Both the position numbers and the translations under genes were made by a program. DNA of 64,000 bases, taken from the NCBI RefSeq assembly GCF_000021965.1, contig NC_011832.1, positions 2,645,242 to 2,709,241 of the forward strand. The letters run 5' to 3'. The notes beneath the pieces were generated by a model. The model saw only the letters and a list, made by a program, of their open reading frames with translations. It searched no databases and was not told the origin of the DNA. The stretch is from Methanosphaerula palustris E1-9c (GTDB lineage Archaea > Halobacteriota > Methanomicrobia > Methanomicrobiales > Methanospirillaceae). Positions 28,757 through 43,304 of this stretch are shown piece by piece (the first letter of the stretch is position 1; every line of letters starts with the position of its first letter).

Positions 28757-29855
28757 TGATCGAGAGGATATCACTGTCTATGATCTGATGTGGCAGCCCG
28801 ACCCGCTGGCCAGGGTGCTTGACCGATCTTCCCCAGACCCGGGCATACCGGAACCTGCTGACAAAGTCACGGTGGAGTTTTCTGCAGATATCGGCGACGG
28901 TCGACCCAGTCCTGATGATCAGCGGTTCTTCAAGGTCTGCGACCCCGTTCTGCGGCTTTAAGAAGACCCGCATGAACCCGAGTTTGTTATAGACCTCGTC
29001 CTTGAGTTCGTCCATGTGGAGCCCGCTGTGTGCCGAGATCATCAGCGGTTCGACCCCGATCTCATCGACGATCCCTCTCCTTATCTCCTCCTGGGTCTCG
29101 GCGTCAACGAGGTCGACCTTGTTGACTGCGATAAATGCAGGAATGTAGACCCGGCTCCCAATCATCGCATCGATCAGGTCGTCCTGGGTCGCACCGCCCC
29201 TGACCAGCACATCGGCGTTCATGATCTTGTTCTCTGCAAGGATCGACCTGACCTCCTCGATCTCAAGGTCCAGGGTCCCGACCGCATGGAGCAACACCCC
29301 GCCGTTTGAGGTCCTCTTGATGGTGATGTCGGGCTTTGGCTTATTGATCCGGATTCCGGCATCGTACAACTCCTTGAGCAGCACCCCTGCATGGGCGCCA
29401 TTGAAGACATCAAGGAGGATCACGATGATGTCGGCCGACCGAACGACGCCGATCACCTCCTTGCCGCGCCCCCTCCCCATCGCTGCGCCGGCAATCAGAC
29501 CGGGGATATCAAGGATCTGGATCTTCGCTCCCTTGTAGTCCATCGACCCTGGCACCACCGTCAGGGTCGTGAACGCATAGGCGCCGACCTCGCTCTTGGT
29601 CCCGGTCAGTTTGTTCAAGAGGGTACTCTTACCGACCGATGGGAACCCGACCAGTACGACTGTGGCATCACCTGACTTCTTGACTGAGAACCCCTCCCCG
29701 CCACCACTGGCCTTCATTGCCCTGGTGACCGCCTCGTCCTTGAGTTTGGCGATCTTGGCCTTCAGGCGTCCGATATGTTTTGAGGTGGCCTTATTATAAG
29801 GGGTCCGCTCAAGTTCAGCTTCCAGTTCCTGTATCTGATCTTCAAGGCCGCTCAT
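28743..29855 (-). CDS. DRG-family GTP-binding protein
   Basis: A 370-residue GTPase of the OBG/DRG group. G1 'GFPSVGKSTLLNKLTG' (about residues 68-83), G3 'DIPGLIAGAAMGRGRGKEV', G4 'NKVDL', then a C-terminal TGS domain ('VFLKPQNGVADLEEPLI'). N-terminal coiled coil ('LEAELERTPYNKATSKHIG') is typical. DRG proteins act with ribosomes, but the exact role in archaea is open. A promoter upstream of 29855 lies in the AT-rich 29880-29910. Confidence 0.93.
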   Translation of the reverse strand: MSGLEDQIQELEAELERTPYNKATSKHIGRLKAKIAKLKDEAVTRAMKASGGGEGFSVKKSGDATVVLVGFPSVGKSTLLNKLTGTKSEVGAYAFTTLTVVPGSMDYKGAKIQILDIPGLIAGAAMGRGRGKEVIGVVRSADIIVILLDVFNGAHAGVLLKELYDAGIRINKPKPDITIKRTSNGGVLLHAVGTLDLEIEEVRSILAENKIMNADVLVRGGATQDDLIDAMIGSRVYIPAFIAVNKVDLVDAETQEEIRRGIVDEIGVEPLMISAHSGLHMDELKDEVYNKLGFMRVFLKPQNGVADLEEPLIIRTGSTVADICRKLHRDFVSRFRYARVWGRSVKHPGQRVGLPHQIIDSDILSIITEH

Positions 29856-30006
29856 TGTCTATCCTAAGAGTTTGTTCTCTCTATTAATAGGAAAGCGGGT
29901 GCAATATAAGTGTGGGTTGGGGATCTGGCGGATGATCTCGCGCACCCTTCCATTTCATCAGATTTGAAGTCCAAGCCGGCTGGCATTTCTGGATGTGGTA
30001 GAAATG

Positions 30007-30014
30007 TTTAAATC
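30007..30014 (+). promoter_or_regulatory. Box A promoter of tRNA-Glu
   Basis: TTTAAATC, about 30-37 bases before the tRNA-Glu gene, matches the archaeal TATA (box A) element. An adjacent GC-rich palindrome (TCTCCGGAGA) follows. Confidence 0.6.
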
Positions 30015-30043
30015 TCCGGAGATATCATGTTATTAGAAGATCT

Positions 30044-30118
30044 GCTGCTATAGTGTAGACCGGCCAATCATGAAGGACTCTCACTCCTTCGACCTGGGTT
30101 CGAATCCCAGTAGCAGCA
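30044..30118 (+). tRNA. tRNA-Glu (anticodon CTC), integration target
   Basis: A 75-base tRNA. Acceptor stem GCTGCTA/TAGCAGC, D-arm region GTGTAGACCGGCCAATCAT as in archaeal tRNA-Glu, anticodon stem AAGGA/TCCTT with loop CTCTCAC (anticodon CTC, 30080-30082), T-arm CTGGGTTCGAATCCCAG, discriminator A. No encoded CCA. The 55-bp att repeat begins exactly at the first loop base (30078), so the intact gene has its 3' part supplied by the att repeat. It is complete and should be functional. Confidence 0.96.
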
Positions 30119-30406
30119 TCCGTTTTTGGTTAATGCGTCTGCTTCAGTAAGTTTATTTTGGGTTTGTACTTCCATATGTCGTTCTAATGACTGGCGCGCG
30201 GTATTTATCTTCTCATTCAGTGATTCTTGAGTAATAACTGATTCTTTTTTGTCCAATGGTAATACGATAAAAGCACCATCAAGGTCCACGATGCCGGCAT
30301 TTTTCCCGATTAAATTATTGCGCGTGTTCTTTGGGAACCTTAATACGGTGTATTTGTAACCTTTTTTTGGTTCTTCTTTTTTGAATTGGATAACATCAAC
30401 CTGCAT
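30068..30406 (-). pseudogene. Integrase N-terminal fragment, int(N)
   Basis: The frame starts at ATG 30406 and reads leftwards: about 92 unique residues, then 'TKNGCCYWDSNPGRRSE', the antisense translation of the tRNA-Glu 3' half in the att repeat, then two further residues and a stop in host DNA. The N-terminal part is a SSV-like integrase N-domain: 'VLRFPKNTRNNLIGKNAGI' (about residues 21-39) plus a helical linker. The fragment has no catalytic residues. Joining it to the right-end fragment at the repeat gives one frame. I mark it a fragment produced by integration, not by decay. Confidence 0.9.
30078..30132 (+). repeat. attL, left copy of the 55-bp att repeat
   Basis: Identical to 38347-38401. 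It covers the tRNA-Glu anticodon loop to 3' end (30078-30118) and 14 bases beyond, ending TCCGTTTTTGGTTA. The bases just outside differ (A left against G; A right against T), which defines the repeat ends. Confidence 0.97.
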
Positions 30407-30916
30407 GGAATGGGATTGTAGTAAGATAAGAAGAAGATGACGACTATCGATATCCTCTAAAGTTTCAACCCCTGATGGTGGAGATAAAACAGGAGTAAAT
30501 CATCTACAATCGCATTCTTGCCATCAAGCATTGAACATAGAGTAAAGGGACTGTCACTCTTCAATCAGGCGAACGTGAAGGTACTTTACTTTGACTTTAA
30601 TTTTCAGTTCAATGTTCTCTATGTCTTTGGGAAACTTATCTGATAAAATTAATATAGTGACGAGGTATTGCGCTCAATATCCGAAAATAAGCCCGATTCA
30701 TCGGAAAGTCGAAGGGGGTGGGCCGTTTTTTATGGGTGGTTACATTGCGCATAAAAAATTTTACAAAATTTGAAAGTTGTATGAATAGTATTATGAATTT
30801 AATTTGATTGGTTTGAACCGCTTCATGAATCAAGGGATAATCGCCGTTTTGGGATCACCTCTTCAATAATTATTTCGTGACTATAAATTAATCATCTTTT
30901 ATTGTGTAGGTATTTT
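30407..30916. other. Left interior of the element, no gene recognised
   Basis: About 510 bp A+T-rich. Upstream of int(N) the minus strand stays open for about 35 codons without a start codon ('VETLEDIDSRHLLLILLQ'), perhaps the remains of a longer N-terminus. Short plus-strand frames (30591-30773) show no domain. A TATA-like sequence, CTATAAATTAAT at 30881-30892, lies 25 bases before the zinc-ribbon gene at 30917. Confidence 0.4.
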
Positions 30917-31201
30917 ATGGTGAAAATTCAGGAATATCAACGGACATGCCGGCATTGTGGAAAAGTCTGGCATTCGTTAGTTTCAAGAGAGAGGTCATTA
31001 TCTCTCAGGAGAACGGGCGCTGTATTAGGAGAATGTGGAAGTCAAATGCAATCTGCTTCCCTTTGTTTTATGTGCAATTTTGGTGCTCCCCAATATGAAA
31101 GAAATGCTGATGCCACTACAAGTGAAATTGATAGATTAAGATCATGCCCGGCATGTGGATCGAAAAACTACTCAGAAAAGATAATGACTTATGACCAATA
31201 A
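30917..31201 (+). CDS. Small triple-CxxC zinc-ribbon protein
   Basis: A 94-residue protein from ATG 30917. It has three cysteine pairs: '[10 protein letters not shown]' (about residues 11-20), 'CFMCNF' in the middle and '[10 protein letters not shown]' near the end, so one zinc ribbon plus another possible metal site. No enzyme motif. The end overlaps the yidD-like gene by 11 bases, so the two are translationally linked. Function unknown; could bind DNA, RNA or protein. Real gene by codon pattern, TATA box and coupling. Confidence 0.7.
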
Positions 31202-31430
31202 TCCATTCACAATCGTATCAATTATCTTGATAAAAAAGATTTGGCATGGACGTTTAGGATTCCGGTATAAATCAAAACGAAACATAATCTGCCGGTTCTA
31301 TCCCACCTGTTCAAATTATGCAATAATGGCATTAGGTAAATATGGTTTTATAAAAGGTTGGGTTTTGACATATAATCGTATAAAACGATGTAATCCAAAA
31401 AATACAGATTCTTGTATCGATTTTCCATAA
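31191..31430 (+). CDS. yidD: YidD-family membrane insertion efficiency factor
   Basis: The 79-residue protein carries the unmistakable DUF37/YidD core '[19 protein letters not shown]' (about residues 34-52), followed by '[14 protein letters not shown]'. The N-terminal amphipathic helix '[19 protein letters not shown]' corresponds to the part that sits at the membrane. In bacteria YidD helps insert membrane proteins, together with YidC. The usual GGxDPVP tail is degenerate here (SCIDFP). It is rare in archaea and its presence on an element suggests a bacterial origin. It overlaps the zinc-ribbon gene. Confidence 0.85.
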
Positions 31431-31554
31431 GAACAATAAATTCTCATATTCAGCTAAATCGGAAGTCACCGCCCCTATTTTCGATTTTCTGTTCGCAACA
31501 TCAAAGATGTCGACAAGGCCCTAGGTAATGATCAAAAAAGGTGAGAGGGATGGC

Positions 31555-32790
31555 CTATACTGGAAGTTTGGCACCTGCCAGATTCAAGTAAATTGTAGCC
31601 TTCTTCAGGTGCTGATTTGCTTCGTCCAACTTGGATGTGAATGCCGAACCTTTTCCATCTTGGAAATATTGCATCGCATCAGCCAATGCGTCGCCGTAGG
31701 CTTTCACTTCCGGTAGGGCTTGGAGGTATGCGTCTTCCCCCTCCTGGAAATTCGATGAGACTTGTATAGGGGTTATCTTGTTGTACCAGAACTGCGTCCG
31801 AGTGGACAGTTTTGAACCTAGGGTTTTAACTGTCGAATAATGGTAGGAACCCAACTCAGTGTTAATGGCGGTGATGATCGGTGTAAGTTCTTGTCCCGAA
31901 CTTATGTAAGCATCAATAAATTTCTGATCGTCATTAGCACTCTGATACGTCCTCTGTACCGCTACTGTTTGTTGATATGTGTTCTGCAACGTTGTTGACA
32001 CAGTTATTGTCTGCCGATACGTCATCTCCACTGTCGGGGAAGTTGAAGGCACCTTGGCACCCTGATGGGACGCATCCGATGCCCAGTCATCACCATTGGC
32101 CTTCTTATCTAACAGGGCCTGGAGGTATGAGTACTTCTGATCCTGATAATTCGATGAAACTTGCATGGCGTCGATCTTGTTGTACCAGAATTGTGCATGG
32201 GCAGACAAGTCAAACCCCAGGGTTCCGGCTGTTGAATAATCGTTGGCGTTAATTGCATTGGAAAGTTTGTCAACAATCGGATTAAGATCGGCTCCGGATC
32301 TCTCCACGGCATTGATAAATGTCTGGTCGTCATTCGTACCCTGCAACGTCGGTGATGTAGACGTTACTGCCACAGTTGTTTGTGAATCTACCACAACTTG
32401 GGAATTCCCCGCAAAAGAACTGCTACTCGGCGAGGATGGATGATACAAAATGAGAGAAATTGCTCCGTATAACATCACCAGAAAAAATAACCCAATACCT
32501 CCTACACAAATTAATTTGATCACACGACTGGCACTAATTTTATGTGCTCTAATCTCTGTTTGAGGATGATAATCTCTGTTTACTGTATGGCAATAAGGGC
32601 AAAACTCAACATTATCATCGTAGACTTTTCCACACTTATGGCAGGGGAGAACTTCTATCCCTTTTCGTGGTTCTTTTTTAACCTTTTCTTGAGGATCTTG
32701 GTGAAGTATATTTACTGTATGGCAATATGGGCAAAACTCAACAAAATTATCGTAAGATTTTCCACACTTATGGCAGATACGAGTGGTCAT
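31555..32790 (-). CDS. Membrane protein with duplicated zinc ribbons and duplicated outer domain
   Basis: A 411-residue protein with internal duplication at both ends. N-terminal zinc ribbons 'ICHKCGKSYDNFVEFCPYC' (about residues 5-23) and 'CHKCGKVYDDNVEFCPYC' (about 50-67) are nearly identical, also at DNA level. A transmembrane helix lies at about 91-116. Outside the cell, two repeats of about 90 residues each contain 'NDDQ-FI-A', 'QFWYNKI' and 'QVSSN-Q....YLQAL' (about 151-240 and 289-378), separated by a Thr-rich linker. Topology: ribbons inside, repeats outside. It may be a surface or sensing protein of the element. I know no described family for the outer repeats. Confidence 0.75.
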   Translation of the reverse strand: MTTRICHKCGKSYDNFVEFCPYCHTVNILHQDPQEKVKKEPRKGIEVLPCHKCGKVYDDNVEFCPYCHTVNRDYHPQTEIRAHKISASRVIKLICVGGIGLFFLVMLYGAISLILYHPSSPSSSSFAGNSQVVVDSQTTVAVTSTSPTLQGTNDDQTFINAVERSGADLNPIVDKLSNAINANDYSTAGTLGFDLSAHAQFWYNKIDAMQVSSNYQDQKYSYLQALLDKKANGDDWASDASHQGAKVPSTSPTVEMTYRQTITVSTTLQNTYQQTVAVQRTYQSANDDQKFIDAYISSGQELTPIITAINTELGSYHYSTVKTLGSKLSTRTQFWYNKITPIQVSSNFQEGEDAYLQALPEVKAYGDALADAMQYFQDGKGSAFTSKLDEANQHLKKATIYLNLAGAKLPV

Positions 32791-32957
32791 ATTTAATTCC
32801 TATAACGAAAATCATTGTTGCCATTGCTTTAAAATACATTGATTTGATCTTTTGAAGGTTGCGGGAAAGATAATAATGGGGCGTGGTATATTTGTTAGGC
32901 AACACAATTCAAGAAAATTCAGAACAAAAAAGATGTCTAATACGTATTGTAAAATTA

Positions 32958-33542
32958 TTACATGTCATTAAGTCGCTTCATCAGAGTTGAGTACTTAATT
33001 CCCATCTTCTTAGCAATTTCAGTATATTTTATTCCTTTCTCATCGTGAAGACGAGCGACTTTCTTCATATCGATATCTACCCAGGGCCGACCCAATGTCT
33101 TACCTTGTCTTTTTGCATTTTCCAATCCAAGTTTTGTTCTCTCCACCAAATTTTCGCGTTCCCTCATTGCGCACCAGGACATCACAGATGTGATAAGAGA
33201 ACGAATTGAAGGATCACATTGGAGCCATGATTCAGTAGGCGAAAGGGACCGTAAACACACGTTCATATTATCGAAGTCTCGTAACACATTCAAGGTGTCA
33301 GTAAGATCACGGCTTATCCTTGATAGTTCAAAGGTGTAAATGTGAGTAATGCCGGCGGTTTGAATGGCTTCAATCATCTTCTGAAATCCCGGTCTTTGAT
33401 GGGGAGGCACTGCACCACTAATACCAACATCAGTGAAGATTAAGTCTGATGGTATGCCGGCTTCAAGCAACTTATGAGTTTGATTCTCAATCTTTTCTGA
33501 TGCCAAAGAGGTCCGAGCATATCCAACAATTGAGCAATTCAT
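32958..33542 (-). CDS. Serine recombinase (resolvase/invertase family)
   Basis: A 194-residue small serine recombinase. The catalytic serine lies in 'VGYARTSLASE' (about residue 12), then 'IFTDVGISGAVPPHQRPGF' and 'YTFELSRISRDLTDTLNVL' with the conserved Arg pair, then the E-helix. The C-terminus has a helix-turn-helix ('LHDEKGIKYTEIAKKMGIKYS') for DNA binding. Such proteins resolve plasmid dimers or invert DNA. I see no matching inversion segment. It is divergent from the HTH gene across a 233-bp AT-rich region. Confidence 0.92.
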   Translation of the reverse strand: MNCSIVGYARTSLASEKIENQTHKLLEAGIPSDLIFTDVGISGAVPPHQRPGFQKMIEAIQTAGITHIYTFELSRISRDLTDTLNVLRDFDNMNVCLRSLSPTESWLQCDPSIRSLITSVMSWCAMRERENLVERTKLGLENAKRQGKTLGRPWVDIDMKKVARLHDEKGIKYTEIAKKMGIKYSTLMKRLNDM

Positions 33543-33775
33543 ATTAAACCACCTTTAATAGTAATACTAGTGTTACATGATATAAAAACATTTGCAATTT
33601 TCGGCCTAAAAAATTCTTATTATCAATCGTTCGATTAATAGAATTTATATATGATGATATAATCATCAAATATCGCATTAATTGGTTGTTATATTGATAT
33701 TGTAGTTTATTTAGTTAATTATATTCAAGTACTTATATATGCATGTACGTCCAATTATATCAGGAGGTAAAAATT
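33543..33775. promoter_or_regulatory. Divergent regulatory region with palindromes
   Basis: A+T-rich gap between the serine recombinase and HTH gene. It holds a 17-base palindrome TGATGAT-ATA-ATCATCA (33652-33668), a smaller one AATCG-TT-CGATT (33625-33636) and a TATA box TTATATAT (33733-33740) 36 bases before the HTH start. Likely the binding site of the HTH protein or recombinase; could also be part of an origin. Confidence 0.6.
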
Positions 33776-33970
33776 ATGAAAACCTTAAGAAAATCGGATT
33801 TCTTCACGATTGAAGAAATTGCGAAATTAACGAATCGCTCAACGCATACAGTTTATCGCTGGATTCGAGAAGGACGTATGGAGTCCTTTAAGACAAAATT
33901 ACGTACCGTTTATGTGAACAAAAAAGAAGTGGAACGGTTTCTGACTGTGAATCAGATTCCGATCTACTAA
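33776..33970 (+). CDS. Excisionase-like HTH protein of the element
   Basis: A 64-residue winged HTH (HTH_17 type): 'FFTIEEIAKLTNRSTHTVYRWIREG' is helix-turn-helix followed by a wing and a final 'VERFL' helix. Start at 33776 is supported by a strong ribosome binding site (CAGGAGGT, 7 bases upstream). It may act as recombination directionality factor for the integrase, or regulator of the primase gene 22 bases downstream. Confidence 0.85.
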   Translation: MKTLRKSDFFTIEEIAKLTNRSTHTVYRWIREGRMESFKTKLRTVYVNKKEVERFLTVNQIPIY

Positions 33971-33992
33971 TGATTAAAATTGGTATTCAAAT

Positions 33993-35516
33993 ATGATCTA
34001 TACTTGTAAGTACTTTAATTTTACTCCCTCAAATTCCCCGATTTTAAGGGAATTATTCAAAACCTATCAAGAGTATGCTGAGGAATATGAAAAGACAGTT
34101 GAACAAGATGGCTTTCAGGGAAGCATCGACCCGTATACGTACGTGAATGGCTTAATTTCCACTTGGGAAAAGTCGTGGAAGGAAAATCCCTCCCGATTCA
34201 CTTATCAACCGGATCCAAACAAATCAACAAAGAAGCCAAATCTTGACACAATTATGGATTACGTTATCAAGCATTTTGCTGCTATAACGTTTAAAGATGT
34301 AATTTACATTTATGACCAGAAAACAGGGACCTATCGTCCAGATGAAGGAGAAATTAATGGATTAATTATGGATCTTCTTCATTCAGAGGGATATACGAAT
34401 AATAACAAGATTGCCGAACTGTTTAGGGAAATACAGACTCGAATAAAGGCGCGAAATATAATTACTAAATATCCATTCAATCTGGTTGCTAATCTGATCC
34501 CATGTAAGAATGGTGTACTTGATCCACTAACTCAAACAATTGTTCCTCGTTCACCTGCATACGGCTTCACATATATGATAAATGCTGAGTATCTTCCTGA
34601 AGTGGATTGCATATTTATTAAAAAATATCTCAGGACTTTGGTAGCACCAAAAGATTATGAGATGCTGCTTAACTTAGGAGCCTCGTGTTTGATCCGTGAA
34701 TCTCAGAAGAAGATGTACCTCATCTACAACAGGAGTGGAAATAATGGAAAAACAACACTTCTCAATCTTCTAACAGACATGCTTGGGAAAGAGAATACAT
34801 CTTCATTATCCCTTCAAGATTTTGATAAAGGTGGATTTCGGGTTGCAGAGATCGATGGAAAGATTGCAAATATTTCTGGAGATTTACCTACTACAAGAAT
34901 CTCGGATACCTCAGTTATCAAGCAGTTAACAGGAGAAGATTTCATTATGATAGAGCGAAAATATGGCCAGCCTTATGAAATCCAAAACCGAGCAATATTG
35001 ATCTTTGGTGCGAATGAGCCCCCAGTATTCAATGATACAACTGATGCATTTTACTCCAGGATGGTTATGATAGAATTTCCAAATCAATTCAAGGTAGACT
35101 TGGATTTTAATAAAAAGCTCAAAGAACCGGAAAATTTAAGCGCACTGCTAAAGGTATTCGTGGATCATATCCCTACGCTCCTTAAGTCAGGGATAACCAC
35201 AGACACAGAAGCGATGAAGAACCAATACCTAAGGGAGAGCGATTCCGTATATCGCTTCTTTGAAGATAATTTAGTCAAAGATCAATTTGGAGAAATCGAT
35301 CTTGATCTAGTCTATGACGTATACATAGATTACTGCACAGTGAACAAAGTAAAAAAAGTAGGGAAAAAAGCCTTCAGTGTACGGATGTCAGAGCATTTCG
35401 ATGTCTCAACAAGACGCAGGGGTTCAACAGGCGAACAGATCGCATATCTGAAAGGTGTCAAGTTTAAGTCTGCTAAACAACAGACATTTGATCAGATTGA
35501 GATGACTGCGGCTTGA
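33993..35516 (+). CDS. P4-family primase/helicase (phage and plasmid replication)
   Basis: A 507-residue replication protein. The C-terminal part (about residues 230-430) is a SF3-type helicase of the D5/P4 family: Walker A 'NRSGNNGKTTLLNLL', Walker B region 'KIANISGDLPTTRI', sensor region 'ILIFGANEPPVFNDTTDAF' (motif C Asn). The middle (about 150-230) is the D5_N region. The N-terminal domain has no recognisable primase motif, so priming by this protein is uncertain. It is the likely replication initiator. It forms an operon with the HTH gene. Confidence 0.9.
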   Translation: MIYTCKYFNFTPSNSPILRELFKTYQEYAEEYEKTVEQDGFQGSIDPYTYVNGLISTWEKSWKENPSRFTYQPDPNKSTKKPNLDTIMDYVIKHFAAITFKDVIYIYDQKTGTYRPDEGEINGLIMDLLHSEGYTNNNKIAELFREIQTRIKARNIITKYPFNLVANLIPCKNGVLDPLTQTIVPRSPAYGFTYMINAEYLPEVDCIFIKKYLRTLVAPKDYEMLLNLGASCLIRESQKKMYLIYNRSGNNGKTTLLNLLTDMLGKENTSSLSLQDFDKGGFRVAEIDGKIANISGDLPTTRISDTSVIKQLTGEDFIMIERKYGQPYEIQNRAILIFGANEPPVFNDTTDAFYSRMVMIEFPNQFKVDLDFNKKLKEPENLSALLKVFVDHIPTLLKSGITTDTEAMKNQYLRESDSVYRFFEDNLVKDQFGEIDLDLVYDVYIDYCTVNKVKKVGKKAFSVRMSEHFDVSTRRRGSTGEQIAYLKGVKFKSAKQQTFDQIEMTAA

Positions 35517-35528
35517 TTATATACCAAT

Positions 35529-35676
35529 ATATATCACTCCATTTTTAAATTTAAGCCAATATTTCACATATATTAATATTTATATATAATAAATATAATT
35601 TTAAAATTTATTAGAGAGGGTAGATAAGGTGATATACGTGAAATATTTGGTTTAAATCGAAAAAGGAGTGATATAT
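35529..35676. repeat. Long imperfect inverted repeat with AT-rich core: candidate origin
   Basis: Left arm 35529-35573 and right arm 35631-35676 are imperfect reverse complements over about 45 bases, starting with 12 perfect bases (ATATATCACTCC / GGAGTGATATAT) and including a second conserved block around TATTTCAC / GTGAAATA. The 57-base core is nearly pure A+T on its left side. It lies 13 bases after the primase/helicase stop, between convergent genes. Replication origins next to the initiator gene often look so. A double terminator is the alternative. Confidence 0.75.
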
Positions 35677-35801
35677 TCGTCTTTTCTCCAAATTTCAATT
35701 GAACTTGTTCCGTTCTTTACTCCAGATGGGGGGACGTGATAGCATCCTGCCATCAAGGGTATGATCTAGAATTTATTTCGGAATGGCCTCATGAAGAAAA
35801 T

Positions 35802-36599
35802 TCAAACAATCTTTTTCACATTTTCAATCAGTTCCTTAACTTGCCCTTTATTGACCTCAAAGGGATGATCACAGAAATTTCGAATACTCGCCAGATGTTC
35901 AATTTTTTTCTTCAAGATAAGATCGATTTTATTTTCATCATAGAGTTTTTGAACCAAAGGAACCATTGTTTCCTTCTTGTTGTAATCGATTTGATTTTTA
36001 TCACATTGTGTTCTGAGATATTGCTCTAATGCAACGCCCGCTAATGCTCCGGCTGCTCTTTCAAAACCTTTTTCGTATAAATATTCGGATTGTTCAATTT
36101 CCCTTTCGATATAATCCCCAGATATTATATCTCGTAATTTATGCTCACTTATTTTTGCAACATAAGGTACTGAATATAAGATACTTCTTTGAATTTCAAA
36201 TCGATTAACGAATTCATCAATAATTTTTACCTTACTTTCTGCCTCTTGAGAGTGACGGAATTTGAGATAATCCATAATTCCCGGTTGAAACGGCGTACGT
36301 CCTCCAGATTCATAGCATTCTGAGAATTCCCTCTCTTTTTCAGGACGAAATTCCTTGATAAAATGCAGCCCCACGGAGTAATATCTTTCATAATCTCGAA
36401 TTGCAATTCGTTGATTTTCTTTTTGATCATCGTCAACTCTTTGCCAGATATAATATGATTGATCACCAAAATCTCCATATGGATGGGTAATATGTGATAA
36501 TGGAGTTTCATACAGCAGTTTTCTTGCTGCTTCTTCAGTTTTACAGGCCAATCGTTCTAGTTCATCAATTTCTCTATTAATATAATCAATATCTGACAT
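35802..36599 (-). CDS. HEPN-like C-terminal domain protein
   Basis: A 265-residue protein of two parts. Residues 1-150 have no recognisable domain. The C-terminal part (about 165-265) has the pattern of HEPN or DUF4145-like proteins: a helix 'GFERAAGALAGVALEQYLRT' and, later, 'RNFCDHPF', an Arg-X4-His as in HEPN ribonucleases. HEPN proteins often act as toxins or abortive-infection RNases. No antitoxin gene (for example MNT) lies beside it. Function as a defence or addiction factor is inference. Promoter is in the 271-bp divergent gap. Confidence 0.6.
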   Translation of the reverse strand: MSDIDYINREIDELERLACKTEEAARKLLYETPLSHITHPYGDFGDQSYYIWQRVDDDQKENQRIAIRDYERYYSVGLHFIKEFRPEKEREFSECYESGGRTPFQPGIMDYLKFRHSQEAESKVKIIDEFVNRFEIQRSILYSVPYVAKISEHKLRDIISGDYIEREIEQSEYLYEKGFERAAGALAGVALEQYLRTQCDKNQIDYNKKETMVPLVQKLYDENKIDLILKKKIEHLASIRNFCDHPFEVNKGQVKELIENVKKIV

Positions 36600-36870
36600 T
36601 ATCCGCTCCTATGCTTCCATAACGAATATCCTAATCAGAAAATTCTCCAAGAGTCGTTCATCTCTTTCTTCAGAACCAGAATCTCGTAATAATAGATCAT
36701 CGGACCTCATGAAAAACTGAACCTCGGATGGGTAGAGTCAAACAATGGTATTCTGTTCATCGGGAAGTGTTATCTGATCTCTTATAGCCACTATCCCGGA
36801 AATATCCATTACTAAGTATATTTATAATCAAATAATAATATATAGAAATAAAACCAATTTAATACTCAAT
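36600..36870. other. Divergent intergenic region in the element
   Basis: A+T-rich 271-bp gap between the HEPN-like gene and the coiled-coil gene. A TATA-like TATTTATAATC lies at 36819-36829, about 42 bases before ATG 36871. No other frame of interest. Confidence 0.4.
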
Positions 36871-37194
36871 ATGACGTCCATTTTACCAATAAAATCATTA
36901 ACGAAGGAATCAGCAAATAAATTGATGGTCCAATTAGTTAATGAATGTATTGCCCCAATGGAAGAACCATATAATTCCAATTATGCCAGGGAGAAATTGG
37001 CCAGGATACGTCAGGCCATCAAGGTTTTGGAGTTGTATATCATCCATCAGGAACACCAGGAAATTACATCAAGAGTTGAAGAAATCGAGCGGTTGATTAC
37101 ACAAATCGATGATGTAACGCATGATATAAAGGAAGAGAGATGGGCAGAAATATGGGCAGAAAGACGAGCAAACGAGGCTGCTAATAATGCCTAG
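36871..37194 (+). CDS. Small coiled-coil protein of the element
   Basis: A 107-residue, mainly helical, charged protein. Residues 35-100 have coiled-coil character ('EKLARIRQAIKVLELY', 'VEEIERLITQIDDVTHDIK'). No enzymatic motif or known family. A frame of 44 residues overlaps its end (37187), indicating a two-gene unit running toward the integrase fragment. Real gene by promoter and coupling; role unknown, perhaps DNA-partition or regulatory. Confidence 0.55.
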   Translation: MTSILPIKSLTKESANKLMVQLVNECIAPMEEPYNSNYAREKLARIRQAIKVLELYIIHQEHQEITSRVEEIERLITQIDDVTHDIKEERWAEIWAERRANEAANNA

Positions 37195-37321
37195 AACGAA
37201 GTCAAATGATCTAATGCATCGATTATCTCAGGCAGAGGTCCGGTTAAAAAAAATAAAACGTTCTATTGGATGGGGAGGTGATGTAAACATCCCGCGAGAA
37301 GCGTGGTTACGAGTAAGATAA
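37187..37321 (+). CDS. Small 44-residue basic protein
   Basis: The ATG overlaps the stop of the coiled-coil gene (AATGCCTAG). The product (44 residues) begins 'MPRTKSNDLMHRLSQAEVR' and is basic with a short amphipathic helix, which suggests nucleic acid binding. Overlap-type coupling is the main evidence. No family recognised. Confidence 0.45.
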   Translation: MPRTKSNDLMHRLSQAEVRLKKIKRSIGWGGDVNIPREAWLRVR

Positions 37322-37370
37322 AGATATCTGGATGGCTTGCTGCCATCGGAGGTGAAGATACCTAATTGAC

Positions 37371-38346
37371 TCAATTAAGTGTTTTCTTCTCGTTATCCTC
37401 AAATTCAATTGGCCCCCATGCTTGTATATATGCTTCATAAATCTGCTGATAAGTGAAGTTCTTATAATGCCGCCACTGTACCGAATTCATCTGATTACTG
37501 ACAATATAATCTCGATAATCGTTATTGAGGCCGATTGCGGTTGATTTCTGGATGAAATACTTTCGTAAATGCTTCACGAGAATGTACTTGGTAGGAATAT
37601 TTATTTGGTGTAGCCGATGGTTCTTTAAATAGGTCGCTATCTTTTCTGAATCAAATATTGTATCATTATCATCTTTGCCTTTGATCAACTCATTTAGAAT
37701 TGGTATTAGTTGCGGGTGAATTGGTACGTAATGTTCTGTTTCAGTTTTATCAATATCAGACTCTACATAGATACAAGGATTAGGGGAGAGAGATAAGGCA
37801 TCTTTGATGTGTTTTACTGTTAACCTGTCGCATGTTGCCTCACGCATACCTGTATATGACATGAAATATACGAGGGCAATTGCAATATTTGGGTCTGTTA
37901 TACAATCCTTTCCGTTCTGAATATGGCTGATGAGATTACGAATATCTCCATCAAACATAATATCCCGGTTGATCTGTTTCGGCTTTTTTAATCTAACCAA
38001 ATCGATCTGCCGTAAAAAAGGTTTGAGATTTATCCCATCTTTCGTGTCGTTTAAATAGTTCAGGTAGCGTTTGAAGAATCCTAACCCTTTATGACGGCTA
38101 CTATAGGTTGAGTATGTGGTGGTGATCTTATCAATCACAGCACTGGTCGTAGCGTTGTTAATCACACCTTGTGTGCAGGGATAAATAAAGTCTCTCGCAA
38201 AGCGTGTATTGGTCTGTTGTGTTGTAATAGCGCGCTCGATGTTGATCTGGTCTACAAAATTATATAGTTCGTCTTCTGTAAAAACTGGGGTATCACCATT
38301 ATTCGGAATATGAGAGGAGGGAAGAAAATCATTGGTTAGATTTATG
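37371..38346 (-). pseudogene. Integrase C-terminal fragment, int(C), catalytic domain
   Basis: A tyrosine recombinase catalytic domain of about 325 residues. It has the first Arg in 'SYTGMREATCDRL', the His-X-X-Arg in 'VKHLRKYFIQKS' and a C-terminal helix 'WRHYKNFTYQQIYEAY' with the candidate nucleophilic Tyr. The open frame runs on through attR (antisense tRNA-Glu, 'NGCCYWDSNPGRRSE') into host DNA up to 38471, so no native start codon remains. Joined to int(N) it gives one protein of about 435 residues. The fragment holds all catalytic residues but lacks the N-domain. Confidence 0.92.
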
Positions 38347-38401
38347 CTCTCACTCCTTCGACCTGGGTTCGAATCCCAGTAGCAGCATCCGTTTTTGGTT
38401 A
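38347..38401 (+). repeat. attR, right copy of the 55-bp att repeat
   Basis: Identical to 30078-30132. It contains the tRNA-Glu 3' part (38347-38387) and 14 further bases. This is the duplicated, non-functional tRNA fragment left after integration. Confidence 0.97.
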
Positions 38402-38472
38402 TTTCTTTATTCAGTCTGTAGATAAGTATTCCTTCTCTTCTCCGGGACGTCGCGCGTTCTTTATCTCTCACG

Positions 38473-41007
38473 TCATGGCACGATCGGACTGTCGACTACT
38501 CTAGAGATACTGCCTGTATATCGGTGAATCGGTAGATAGGCTCCCTTCGGTACCGTGATCTCAAACCGTGCGCCCTTCCCTAACTCGCCAGTTTCGGTGA
38601 TTGTGATCCCGGTGATGGAGAGGATCTCCTGACTGAGAAAGAGACCAAGGCCGGTGTGCTTCCCAAACCCCCGGGTGAAGAGGCGTTTTTTGTCGTCTGC
38701 AGAGATCCCTTTCCCGTCATCCTCGCAGACCAGGATGAGATGCCCCCCTGATTCATGGGATGAGATCCGGATGGTTGTCATCGATTCGCCGCCATATCTG
38801 AGGGCGTTGTCGATGAGATTGTAGAAGACCTTCTCAAAGAGGAGATCGGCGAAGATCTCGCAATCGGCACAATCCTTCTTTACGGTCACCTCCCTCATGG
38901 GCAACAGAGTTACTGCTTTCTCCACGCTCGCCAGTACGTTCTGCCATGTCGGGGCGTTCACGCCGAGGTCCTGATACTCACCGGTGAAGGTGATCTGCCT
39001 TTCGAGAGAATCTGCAATTATTCCTTCATTCCTGATGAACTTCGCCCGCATCTCCTCATCCGGTTCTTCCTCGGAGAGATCGATATACCCCTTGAGTGCA
39101 GTGAGCTGGTTCAACATGTCGTGTCGGGTGACACTCGATAGAAGGTTCAATTTTTTGCTCGCCAGCGCCAGTGCATCCTCTGCCTGTTTGCGCTCGGTGA
39201 TATCCATGGCAACCAGAAGGATTCCAGAGATCGTTCCCTCCTCGTTCCTGAGCAGGATCTTGTCGATCTGGATCCAGAGATGTTCTCCGCTTGCGGTGGT
39301 CATCGATTCGATGATGCCGATCTTTGATCTGCCTGAGGCGATCACCTCCAAGTCATCCAGGTAATATTTTTCTGCCAGGTCCGGAAAGAGTTCCGCGGCG
39401 TTTTTGCCTTCAATCTCTTCGATGGGTATCCCAAACGCCTGTGCACCAGCCGGGTTGATCCTGATGAAAGTATTCTTCGTATCCTTGTACCAGATCATGG
39501 CCGGCGTATGCTCGATGATCGCCCTGTGATCCGCACTCAACTGGCGGAATGCGGCTTCACCCTGTTTGCGCTGGGTGATATCCCTGATCGTCCCTTCGAT
39601 AGCAGCCAACTCTCCAGCATCATCATAGATCTGGTGGCAGCTGACCGATGCCGGGATAGTGCAGCCGTCCCTGTGCTTGAGGGTGATCTCGTATCCCTGG
39701 ACCTCACCGGTGCATCTCAGTGTCTCAAGCAGGCCGGCCCTCTCTTCAGGGAAGGGATATAATTCGTAGACCGGGTGACCGATCAGATCCTCCGGTGCCC
39801 ATCCGGCGAGTCTCTTGACCGAAGGGGAGAGGATGGTGATGATGCCATTTTGGTCGGTCTGATAGTAGAGGTCAGGGAAGGAATTGAAAATCGACCGGTA
39901 TTTCTTCTCGCTCTCCTGCACCTGTTTCTCTGCTAGTTTCCTCTCAGAGATATCCCGGAGGATATGAACACTTCCGAGGATTGTGCCAGAAGGGTCCCGG
40001 ATGGGGGATACGGTCAGGACAAAGTCCCCGTTTAATGTTTCTTCACGGATATCTGTCGAATGGTACTGGCCGTCCAGGAGGAGTTTTTTGTGCAGGCAGG
40101 TGGCCGGTGGTGTACCGGTGTGATGAACGACTTCATAGCAGGTCAGCCCCACCGTCTCGTTTGGTGAAACTCCCAGATGGTCGGCCATCGCTCTGTTCAC
40201 CTGGACGATCCGAAAATGATCGTCGATGATGGCGATCATATCCGGGACCGCGTCGAAGGTCCGTTCCCACCGGTCCTTCGCGTTCAGGATCTCGTTCTGG
40301 AGCTGCTGCCGCTCGGTGATGTCATGGGCGAGCTCTGATATCCCGATGATCCCCCCGGCATTGCTCCGGATCGGAGAGAGCGAGAGGGAGACTTGTATAC
40401 GTTGACCGTCTCTGGTGATTCGTTCGGTCTCGACATGTTCGACCATCTCCCCCTGCAGGATCATTTCGAGCATCAGGTGATGTTCTTCCTTCAATTCGGG
40501 GGGAATGAGACGGAAGATCGAATTGCCTTTCATTTCGTCTGACGTATATCCATACAACCGTTCAGCGCCGGCATTCCAGTCGGAGACAAAGCCCTCAGGG
40601 GTTTTACCGATGATCGCATCACCTGAGGATCTGACCACCGAAACGAGCCGGCGGCAGATCTGGGTGTCGTGATGCATTTGTCCGCTCAGGAATGATACCA
40701 CCCCAGCGACCACGAGGAATACGCCGGCACGTATGATCGCGGAGAGTATTTCAACGGCTGCCGGGGTGACGACGAAGAATGAGACTGCACAATAACTGGC
40801 AGAGAGGAGAGCGGCGAAGAGAAGACCGCGTCGCGGATAGTAGTAGGCGGTCAGGATGATTGGGATGTAGAGCAGGTGCGGGAGCACATAGGTGATACCA
40901 AGCCTGAGCCCATACACAATCAGGAGGAAGGATGCAATGGAACTTGCGACGATGAGGGCTGGAACAAGATTTTTTTTCTGTAACTCATCGAAGAATAAGA
41001 AGTCCAT
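38473..41007 (-). CDS. Membrane sensor histidine kinase with four PAS domains
   Basis: An 844-residue kinase. Four membrane helices at about residues 15-105, then PAS domains at about 115-235, 240-360, 365-485 and 490-610, each with the C-terminal 'DITERK' type PAC ending. The kinase core has the phospho-accepting His in 'SVTRHDMLNQLTALKGY' and an HATPase domain with 'YNLIDNALRYG', 'CEDDGKGIS' and 'GLGLFLSQ'. It belongs to the archaeal multi-PAS kinase type. No response regulator lies beside it. Possible ligands or redox signals cannot be told. Its end is only 72 bp from attR. Confidence 0.92.
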   Translation of the reverse strand: MDFLFFDELQKKNLVPALIVASSIASFLLIVYGLRLGITYVLPHLLYIPIILTAYYYPRRGLLFAALLSASYCAVSFFVVTPAAVEILSAIIRAGVFLVVAGVVSFLSGQMHHDTQICRRLVSVVRSSGDAIIGKTPEGFVSDWNAGAERLYGYTSDEMKGNSIFRLIPPELKEEHHLMLEMILQGEMVEHVETERITRDGQRIQVSLSLSPIRSNAGGIIGISELAHDITERQQLQNEILNAKDRWERTFDAVPDMIAIIDDHFRIVQVNRAMADHLGVSPNETVGLTCYEVVHHTGTPPATCLHKKLLLDGQYHSTDIREETLNGDFVLTVSPIRDPSGTILGSVHILRDISERKLAEKQVQESEKKYRSIFNSFPDLYYQTDQNGIITILSPSVKRLAGWAPEDLIGHPVYELYPFPEERAGLLETLRCTGEVQGYEITLKHRDGCTIPASVSCHQIYDDAGELAAIEGTIRDITQRKQGEAAFRQLSADHRAIIEHTPAMIWYKDTKNTFIRINPAGAQAFGIPIEEIEGKNAAELFPDLAEKYYLDDLEVIASGRSKIGIIESMTTASGEHLWIQIDKILLRNEEGTISGILLVAMDITERKQAEDALALASKKLNLLSSVTRHDMLNQLTALKGYIDLSEEEPDEEMRAKFIRNEGIIADSLERQITFTGEYQDLGVNAPTWQNVLASVEKAVTLLPMREVTVKKDCADCEIFADLLFEKVFYNLIDNALRYGGESMTTIRISSHESGGHLILVCEDDGKGISADDKKRLFTRGFGKHTGLGLFLSQEILSITGITITETGELGKGARFEITVPKGAYLPIHRYTGSISRVVDSPIVP

Positions 41008-41189
41008 GTCTGCGCCACTCCGAACGAATGATATGTATAATTTCCAGAATGGCTTAATAATTATTTAGATCTGAACAGTTCGAAATATGACAGAAACGAT
41101 CAGATCATAGTCCTCCCTCCTCTCCAGTTCTGTTCAGGGTAATCGCTTTTTCCCCCATCGCCACCCATTCCAATCCAGCGATGCCTTCC

Positions 41190-41650
41190 ATGGAATACCG
41201 GGTGACAGATGAACGGGACTCGACCTGATCCGGCTGTTCTTGAACCAGCTGAACAGCCATCACCTGAGTCGGTCGACCGTGTTCCGGCGCCATTTCCACG
41301 AGCAGACCTTCGAGGACCGGAAGGCGTACTTCACGAGGATCACGGCCGCCGGCTCTCTACGGGTGGACCTCGCCTTCAACCCCGAAGCAGGGCGGTACGT
41401 CGGCTCCTGTGTAAGTTCTCTCTAGGCAGAGATAGAGGGGGAGTCGAGTCGATCCTTGTCGAGGAGGGGTACCGGGAGCAGGGGATCGAGTCGACCCCGA
41501 TGACCCTCGCCCTCTCCTGGCTCGACACAAACGGTTCGATCAGGAACCGGGTCTCTGCCGGGGAGGGGAACGAGGAGGCTTCGGGATTTACGAGCGGTTA
41601 GGGTTCTCTCCCCGGCTGACGGTGCTCAAACAGAGGAGGGAGGGATCATT
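41190..41650 (+). pseudogene. GNAT acetyltransferase gene with frameshifts
   Basis: Four frames must be joined: 'MEYRVTDERD', then 'DLIRLFLNQLNSHHLSR' to 'AGRYVGSCVSS', then 'VESILVEEGYREQGI' to 'GNEEASGF', then 'YERLGFSPRLTVLKQ'. Together they give a GNAT protein with the acetyl-CoA motif 'VEEGYREQGIESTPMT' and the usual C-terminal 'GFYERLGF' segment. Three single-base changes break the frame. The changes are not all in homopolymers, so decay is more likely than base-calling error. Confidence 0.8.
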
Positions 41651-41762
41651 ATGGGAGATGGCGGTTCGCTGGCGGTACCGGAAGCCGGTTGGGTTCTGCA
41701 GTGGAACATTCCCGGGATCGGATTGGCAAAACGTGATACAGTGATCGATCGAAAACTATGGT

Positions 41763-42203
41763 ATGGCAAAAGCAGACGAGGCGGTCACCTCATTCAAGAG
41801 GGGTTTCTCCTGCTCACAGGCGGTGCTCTCCTGTTATTCAGAGGAACTGGGGCTGGACCGGGATGTCGCGAACAGGGTTGCCTGCGGATTCGGGGGCGGC
41901 ATTGCACGGATGGGGAACATCTGCGGTGCGGTAGCCGGCGCCATCATGGTCATCGGTATGAAACGGGGCACGACCCGGCCGGATGATACTGCCGCACGGG
42001 AGAGGACCTATGCCCTCGTTCAGCAGTTCATCAGGGACTATACGACGAAGAACGGATCGATCGCCTGTCCGGACCTCCTCGGGCATGATATGGCTGACCC
42101 GGTGCAGTTCAAAGAGGCTCTGGAGAAGAAGGTCGCCGCCCGAATATGCCCTGGGTTGGTAGAGGATGCCGTGACCGTCCTCGAGCGTATTCTGAACGAG
42201 TGA
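41763..42203 (+). CDS. C_GCAxxG_C_C family protein
   Basis: A 146-residue protein of the C_GCAxxG_C_C family, named for conserved cysteines and glycines: 'GFSCSQAVLSCYSEE' (about residues 14-28), 'ACGFGGGIARMGNICGAVAGAIM' and a later pair 'CPDLLG...CPGLVEDA'. The family is probably redox active or binds a metal cluster. Function is not established. It stands between two decayed genes. Start at ATG 41763 has only a weak ribosome site. Confidence 0.85.
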   Translation: MAKADEAVTSFKRGFSCSQAVLSCYSEELGLDRDVANRVACGFGGGIARMGNICGAVAGAIMVIGMKRGTTRPDDTAARERTYALVQQFIRDYTTKNGSIACPDLLGHDMADPVQFKEALEKKVAARICPGLVEDAVTVLERILNE

Positions 42204-42404
42204 TGGGATGGACTCCGGGATTTCGATCCGTTTCGGCTAAGGGTGCAGATGCCTATATTCAATGGTTTCAACGAATCTGGAATTTAATTAACTTCACTAT
42301 ACCAGAAATAATTGACTTTTTTCCCACCTTTCATCACCGTTTCCCCTGACGCTGGCGACGTTACCAGCCGGACCAGGCAGTTGCTGGGGAGATAGGAAAA
42401 AAGG

Positions 42405-42997
42405 TTATGGCTGATTCCTGGCCTTTGTCGCATTCAGACCATTCGTGGTGACCGTCACTGCCGGCCCGCTGTAAACACAGGAGCCGAGGAACCAGTCGTC
42501 GTCCACCTTCTCTACATACCCGAGCTTCGCTTCGACCGTATTGTTCTGGGCGGAGTTGGCGTAATAATACCAGGAATAACCGCTTCCGTTCCTGGCCGCG
42601 TCGCTCATGTTCCAGATGAAGAATTCTCCCTGTGGGTCGATCTCATTCATACGGTTGATGCCGATCTTCTCTGGGTTGAACGGGAGGGCCAGGGTGGTGC
42701 CGTTGAAGTCATAGGCATAGATGTAGAGTTCGCCTTTGATGAACGAACCGTTCGGGTTGTTGAATTCTGCCAGGGCCTTCTCCCTGCCGTTGGTCTTTAC
42801 ATAGGCGACGGCGCTGTCGACAAAGGAGACGAGCGAGGCATTTGAGGTGATGTTCCCCTGCTACAGGGGAGTGGTTCCCGCCGGCAGTGTGGTGGTTGTC
42901 GGGGTGGTTGACTACGGGCTGGTTCTGGACGCAGCCGGCGATAAGGAGGGATGCGCTGATGACGAGCAGGATCAAAAACGAAAGTGACTTCTTTCAT
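42405..42997 (-). pseudogene. Cache-type lipoprotein gene, broken paralogue
   Basis: A damaged copy of the intact lipoprotein at 48952-49521. It starts 'MKE', shifts to 'SLSFLILLVISASLLIAGC' (lipobox), then shifts to a Thr/Pro linker with a TAG at 42863-42861 where the intact copy has Gln, and continues to 'SFVDSAVAYVKTNG' and 'VEKVDDDWFLGSCVY' with a stop at 42405. Two frameshifts and one nonsense codon inactivate it. The C-terminal half is long and still well conserved, so the loss is recent. Confidence 0.88.
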
Positions 42998-43304
42998 ACG
43001 TGAGATGAAGTATTCCTGATATTATAAACAGGCGGGTTTCATCCAGACACTTACAAGAGCCGGTCCAACGGGTTAGAAAAAATTGGACAGGAGAGTGAAA
43101 GATCCGCCGGGGATACAAATTATGGATCCTATCATCGCCCAGTGAACAGGGGGATTGACGCTGTGTGACCCGCACGGGGACCCGGGCGACTCTGATCACG
43201 GTCTGTTGAGCAGGAACAGATGAATCCGATTGATGTCTTTATATGCCTGAAAGAACACCCGTTCACCTGTTCTGGTCTCCATGGATCGGAACAGGTTTGG
43301 TGAA
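42998..43304. other. Intergenic region with DJ-1 gene promoter
   Basis: About 300 bp without a gene. CTTTATATG at 43237-43245 is a good TATA box for the DJ-1-like gene. Nothing else recognised. Confidence 0.5.

Follow-up and report, generated by a model that had tools for sequence, protein, structure and literature searches.

A probable replication origin of inverted 9-bp iterons behind a D5-type helicase gene in an integrative element of Methanosphaerula palustris

Replication of the Sulfolobus islandicus plasmid pRN1 requires a stem-loop of 100 nt located behind orf904, and this stem-loop still functions after relocation. The authors of that work propose it as the origin, state that direct evidence is lacking and report that it contains no iterons (PMC4234260). 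In bacteria, PICI/SaPI origins lie immediately 3' of rep, where two iteron sets flank an A/T-rich region (PMC6092414), and SaPI Rep recognizes its origin through a C-terminal domain (PMC7581432). Cch2 of SCCmec binds direct repeats behind its own gene; its C-terminal domain has also been assayed (PMC7581432). The alpha protein of bacteriophage P4 has a bacterial-type primase domain and a winged-helix domain that binds repeats (PMC4234260).

Here we analyse an inverted repeat in the archaeon Methanosphaerula palustris E1-9c. The window, by which we mean the whole stretch of DNA analysed, is 64,000 nucleotides long. Within it, the repeat sits in an element of 8,269 bp bounded by 55-bp perfect att repeats at tRNA-Glu. 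Between the att repeats lie genes for an integrase, a serine resolvase, an excisionase-type protein and a helicase, a gene convergent with the helicase, and others:

30078-30132, no strand: att repeat at the 3' end of tRNA-Glu (30043-30121), from repeat search and tRNA position
32958-33542, minus strand: serine resolvase (PF00239)
33776-33970, plus strand: excisionase-type HTH protein, 64 aa (TIGR01764, above cut-off)
33993-35516, plus strand: D5/P4-type helicase, 507 aa, proposed initiator (D5_N, DUF5906, Pox_D5; TIGR01613)
35802-36599, minus strand: convergent gene, not part of the proposed origin (weak HEPN-like C-terminus, below cut-off)
37371-38471, minus strand: tyrosine integrase (PHROG integrases; Pfam match below cut-off)
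38347-38401, no strand: second att repeat, 55 bp identical, 8269 bp from the first (repeat search)

What kind of protein is the proposed initiator? It is a D5/SF3 helicase with a C-terminal Pox_D5 domain: D5_N, DUF5906 and Pox_D5 all score above their Pfam cut-offs, and the TIGR01613 match reaches 159.3 bits against a cut-off of 108.7. A preliminary description of this DNA had called it a primase/helicase. The helicase half of that name stands, but no primase domain was recognized in the 507 residues as a whole or in residues 1-136 alone. The best solved relative, 7ola/7om0, is annotated 'DNA primase'; we take it to be the SaPI5 primase-helicase. Compared with solved structures by itself, the C-terminus has no meaningful relative (best E 0.18), and AlphaFold models are too poor to use, with a mean pLDDT of 35.1 for the whole protein and 47.6 for the C-terminal part.

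Directly behind this replication gene lies a large inverted repeat:

35529-35573, no strand: left arm of the inverted repeat (repeat search)
35632-35676, no strand: right arm of the inverted repeat (repeat search)
35577-35628, no strand: A/T-rich spacer between the innermost iterons, candidate melting site (87% A/T)

The arms are 45 nt each, 82% complementary and separated by 58 nt. As the preliminary description had it, the left arm spans 35529-35573, the outer 12 bases of the two arms match exactly, and the repeat follows the helicase stop. Its finer measurements need small corrections: the right arm begins at 35632, not 35631, and the gap between the stop, which ends at 35516, and the left arm is 12 bases, not 13. 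The almost pure A/T core that it noted is real for the first 38 nt of the loop (35574-35611), which are 100% A/T, but the right part contains GAGAGGG, which brings the full 58-nt loop down to 84% A/T. When 50-nt windows of the element are ranked by A/T content, the top eight listed all fall in the loop region, at 96%, against 62% for the element overall. GC skew, which had been suggested as a check, does not point to the repeat; the extremes of the element's skew lie elsewhere.

Shuffled sequence does not approach the repeat. Its score of 28 in the 300 nt behind the stop was equalled by none of 60 and none of 100 dinucleotide shuffles, and no other inverted repeat listed for 29800-43300 exceeds 30 nt. 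It occurs once in the one-contig genome of 2,922,917 bases. Inverted arms this long on either side of a short A/T-rich core, with terminal TA, might also mark a MITE, a small non-autonomous transposon, inserted behind the helicase gene. A single genomic copy is poor company for that reading. So is the DNA search of the 232 genomes of the order, which returned the locus, its own mirror image and otherwise short matches alone (best E 0.006), and so is the occurrence, documented below, of the same layout with unrelated sequences behind homologous helicases. We find a MITE scarcely credible.

The arms are built on 9-bp iterons of sequence GTGAWATAY, five perfect copies and one degenerate, arranged in exact dyad symmetry around the most A/T-rich 50 bp of the element (the degenerate sixth was read from the sequence):

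35529-35537, minus strand: iteron GTGAWATAY, outer left (pattern search)
35559-35567, minus strand: iteron GTGAWATAY, inner left (pattern search)
35568-35576, minus strand: degenerate iteron TTAATATAT, mirror partner of 35629-35637 (read from the sequence; missed by the pattern search)
35629-35637, plus strand: iteron GTGAWATAY, inner right (pattern search)
35638-35646, plus strand: iteron GTGAWATAY, 9 bp on from the 35629 copy (pattern search)
35668-35676, plus strand: iteron GTGAWATAY, outer right (pattern search)

All five copies of GTGAWATAY in the 64-kb window are within the arms, and a genome-wide search for the pair pattern GTGAWATAY-N5-40-GTGAWATAY finds these two arms and nothing else. 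Allowing at most one mismatch, the right arm has three same-strand copies, a number reached in 5 of 2000 shuffles; the two same-strand copies of the left arm are unremarkable (1487 of 2000). Neighbouring units of the right arm match at 7 of 8 positions at an offset of 9.

Is it these units that matter, or the structure that the arms can form? The repeat could act as a DNA cruciform or as an RNA hairpin of 148 nt, serving as a small RNA or in copy-number control. The arms pair over 45 nt, the stretches between iterons included. As RNA, the 148 nt fold to -49.9 kcal/mol, where shuffles average -18.2 (z -10.4), and as DNA the fold has a z of -8.0; in neither case did any of 200 shuffles do as well. 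The pRN1 authors, too, favour a stem-loop (PMC4234260). A hairpin, however, does not predict tandem repetition within an arm, and the arms of relatives often comprise little beyond the iterons, with large unpaired loops. In the SCCmec experiments, Cch2 binding survives deletion of inverted repeats and is abolished by deletion of the direct repeats (PMC7581432). We therefore regard a purely structural role as very unlikely; it is probably the 9-bp iterons, and not the hairpin itself, that are the units of importance.

Does such a repeat also occur behind the helicases of other elements? Helicase matches are present in 57 of the 232 genomes of the order. We fetched the best 60 of 72 listed matches (one of the 12 left out is the second piece of a gene already taken) and dropped three at contig ends (L058, L066 and L093), which leaves 57 loci, the window included, in 53 shared-sequence clusters. 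A locus was counted if its inverted repeat, within 300 nt downstream of the stop, was equalled by at most 1 in 100 shuffles; half of this first set had been inspected before the test was fixed. Such a repeat follows the helicase in 35 of the 57 loci, compared with 17 of 222 other ORFs and 2 of 53 upstream stretches of 300 nt. With an over-represented 7-mer required as well, the counts are 16 of 57, 2 of 222 and 0 of 53.

A second set came from outside the order: 60 of 66 listed places were fetched and L163, L178 and L200 dropped, again leaving 57 loci. The same repeat test was applied, but each locus contributed no more than three control ORFs, against four in the first set. Here the repeat lies behind 18 of 57 helicases, 4 of 170 other ORFs and in 4 of 55 upstream stretches; combined with a 7-mer, it is found in 8 of 57, 1 of 170 and 2 of 55. 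The enrichment is weaker than in the first set, yet present. By this test 22 of the 57 loci of the order and 39 of the 57 outside it have no repeat. The 9-bp spacing recurs as well. An exact 8-mer is repeated 9 bp on behind 21 of 57 helicases in the first set (4 of 222 other ORFs, 1 of 53 upstream) and behind 9 of 57 in the second (1 of 170, 4 of 55), and in both sets no other offset from 5 to 20 is as frequent behind the helicase as offset 9. In five haloarchaeal plasmids no repeat stands out clearly (17, 2, 15, 43 and 48 of 60 shuffles equal the best one); a Halorubrum virus has a clear one (0 of 60). Two loci of a single genome, L187 and L188 in G509, have identical helicase scores and identical repeats and are probably two copies of one element.

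The same survey bears on transcription termination. In M. palustris the repeat is located between the convergent stops of the helicase gene (plus strand) and the 35802-36599 gene (minus strand), and the arms contain TTTTT and its complement AAAAA, which places T-tracts on each strand. Archaeal transcription terminates at T-tracts, and the repeat could be a bidirectional terminator. Across the 35 repeat-bearing loci of the order, however, the next ORF of at least 60 aa is co-directional in 21 and convergent in 12 (in 2 there is none in the stretch); the repeat is thus not tied to convergent genes. Nor does termination explain the 9-bp tandem iterons or their covariation with the helicase tail. 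pRN1 can do without its terminator-like hairpin but not without the large stem-loop (PMC4234260). Termination is very unlikely to be what the repeat is for, though such a role could coexist with that of an origin.

The preliminary description had made the origin depend on the presence of the repeat in close relatives of the element, and on this point the result is divided. The closest relative found is one element present in two genomes (L054 and L055), whose protein is 38-40% identical to the helicase. Its best inverted repeat has arms of only 9 nt, equalled by 56 and 50 of 100 shuffles. The motif, on the other hand, is kept: both loci carry GTGAAATAC behind the helicase, and of the 115 other loci these two alone have GTGAWATAY no further than 200 nt from the stop. 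Scans of genome and viral contigs with a single protein as query returned no close relatives of the helicase. A query made from a two-sequence alignment returned a distant viral contig (L120) and the MAGs Methanomicrobiales archaeon HGW-Methanomicrobiales-6 and Methanoculleus sp. SM3-B2.

Do the iterons vary with the helicase? We examined ten relatives, picked from 14 aligned loci for their common core; the iterons were framed and the test was made after the alignments had been seen. The ten have a near-constant core of 50-51 bp and differing iterons. Eight of the ten have a 9-bp tandem (at least 7 of 8 positions) in the left arm and eight have one in the right arm; seven have it on both sides. 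Over the 45 pairs, iteron similarity follows the identity of the C-terminal tails (Mantel r 0.67; 0 of 5000 permutations); with the 330 columns before the tail, the ATPase part, r is -0.10 (3560 of 5000). Individual pairs make the point. Between L080 and L084, identity is 98% in the helicase part and 45% in the tail, and their iterons are different; between L080 and L104 it is 83% and 78%, and their iterons are nearly the same. This pattern looks like a joint exchange of tail domain and iterons. L097 and L092 are an exception, with similar iterons (0.78) and tails that are 48% identical. In a wider set of 54 loci (the 53 with repeats and L054), tail similarity correlates with the sharing of arm 7-mers at 0.37 (0 of 2000), a correlation that common ancestry could explain.

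Might some other protein of the element bind the repeat? Candidates are its serine resolvase and its HTH protein, and the repeat could be, for example, a resolution site or a partition site. Resolution sites usually adjoin their resolvase gene, and the resolvase gene here is 2 kb away. It is the helicase gene that the repeats follow in many elements, and the helicase tail that their sequence tracks in the ten relatives. We consider a site for another protein highly improbable. An origin of the host's Orc1/Cdc6 type was considered and rejected: the region around the host cdc6 is without GTGAWATAY, and the four 9-mers that it has in common with the repeat are none of them within the repeated 12-mers found there.

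With good confidence we take the inverted repeat for the origin from which the 8.3-kb integrative element replicates, a site whose iterons the helicase would bind. It is, in other words, very probably the site where copying of the element's DNA starts, much as the preliminary description had proposed. An origin is the best explanation because homologous genes in many other elements are followed by the same architecture, and because the layout matches both the stem-loop required for pRN1 replication and the experimentally tested PICI origins. In the mechanism that we propose, the element would excise and circularize before it replicates. The helicase encoded upstream would then use its Pox_D5-type domain, at the C-terminus, to bind the GTGAWATAY iterons in the two arms. 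Since the iteron sets are opposed across the A/T-rich stretch, two helicase rings could assemble there head to head and melt it. No primase was recognized in the element, so the forks would presumably be started by the host primase and polymerase. The sequences themselves show how the repeat is built, that it is unique in the genome, that its like follows homologous genes, and that iterons and tail covary in ten relatives; binding, opposed rings, melting, recruitment of host primase and replication of the element as such are inferred from these.

How close is this locus to the described systems? In kind, the repeat agrees with the initiator-bound origins of pRN1 and PICI/SaPI. In pRN1, as here, the repeat is directly 3' of a D5/P4-type helicase gene, 58 nt separate the arms, and the protein has D5_N, DUF5906 and Pox_D5. 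By the scan used here, the pRN1 arms are 21 nt around that 58-nt loop (0 of 100 shuffles), shorter than the 45 nt of the element; pRN2 has a similar repeat (0 of 100). ORF904, unlike the 507-aa helicase, adds a Prim-Pol domain, and we therefore file the element not as a pRN-family replicon but only as one that works like it. We also observe that GGACA occurs twice, 9 bp apart, in the stem-loop arms of pRN1 (L213, 5084-5183), below the 7-of-8 threshold; it resembles the GGACAC iterons seen in methanogen elements, among them L095 and L104.

With PICI/SaPI origins the element shares two iteron sets that flank an A/T-rich region immediately 3' of the replication gene. It differs in its archaeal host and in that the iterons form one near-palindrome. 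No PICI-type genes for helper-phage induction, interference or packaging were recognized among the element genes scanned. Five satellite-type controls gave 1, 5, 5, 85 and 0 of 100 shuffles in the inverted-repeat test, and none has an exact 9-bp repeat; the match to PICIs is thus one of layout, not of repeat length or palindrome. SCCmec Cch2 is likewise a helicase of the Primase_Cterm/D5_N type with repeats downstream, but it has a partner primase, CCPol-MP, and no such partner was recognized in the element. P4 alpha belongs with the helicase in TIGR01613 and has a repeat-binding winged helix; it differs in its bacterial-type primase domain. The comparison with P4 made here is one of proteins.

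As a layout, this has precedents in the Sulfolobus plasmid and in the phage satellites of bacteria. What may be new is the comparison across archaea, together with the observation that tail and iterons vary jointly. Among the sources searched, which include few subscription journals, the literature on archaeal and methanogen elements with a primase-helicase and iterons or origins holds pRN1 as the sole close case; that on the pRN1 stem-loop or iterons, methanogen elements and archaeal satellites, with the same coverage, holds nothing closer. A broader idea, for and against which we see the case as evenly balanced, is that the 'stem-loop' origins of the pRN1 type and the 'iteron' origins of bacterial PICIs are one type. 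Its members would have short tandem iterons, in archaea mostly 9 bp apart, inverted across a core rich in A/T, and the neighbouring D5-type helicase would read these iterons with its C-terminal domain. Archaeal elements would swap tail and iterons jointly around a constant core, which would set incompatibility groups. The satellite controls, which are without the 9-bp spacing, weaken this idea. The analysis makes it testable whether pRN1-type stem-loops are iteron origins. It also supplies a predicted origin and a predicted cognate initiator for a methanogen integrative element, which could aid the construction of small shuttle vectors for methanogens, and a rule, inverted 9-bp iterons behind a D5-type helicase, for picking out candidate origins in other archaeal mobile elements.

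Some features of the element concern its other genes. The second att repeat falls inside the start of the listed integrase ORF (38347-38471), so the first integrase codons may differ between the integrated and the circular form. The 35802-36599 gene also matches PHROG 2039, whose function is unassigned, and is perhaps an accessory gene of the element. Inside the gene for a zinc-ribbon protein (31555-32790, minus strand), a 66-bp direct repeat (32579-32644 and 32711-32776, 89% alike) corresponds to duplicated zinc ribbons.
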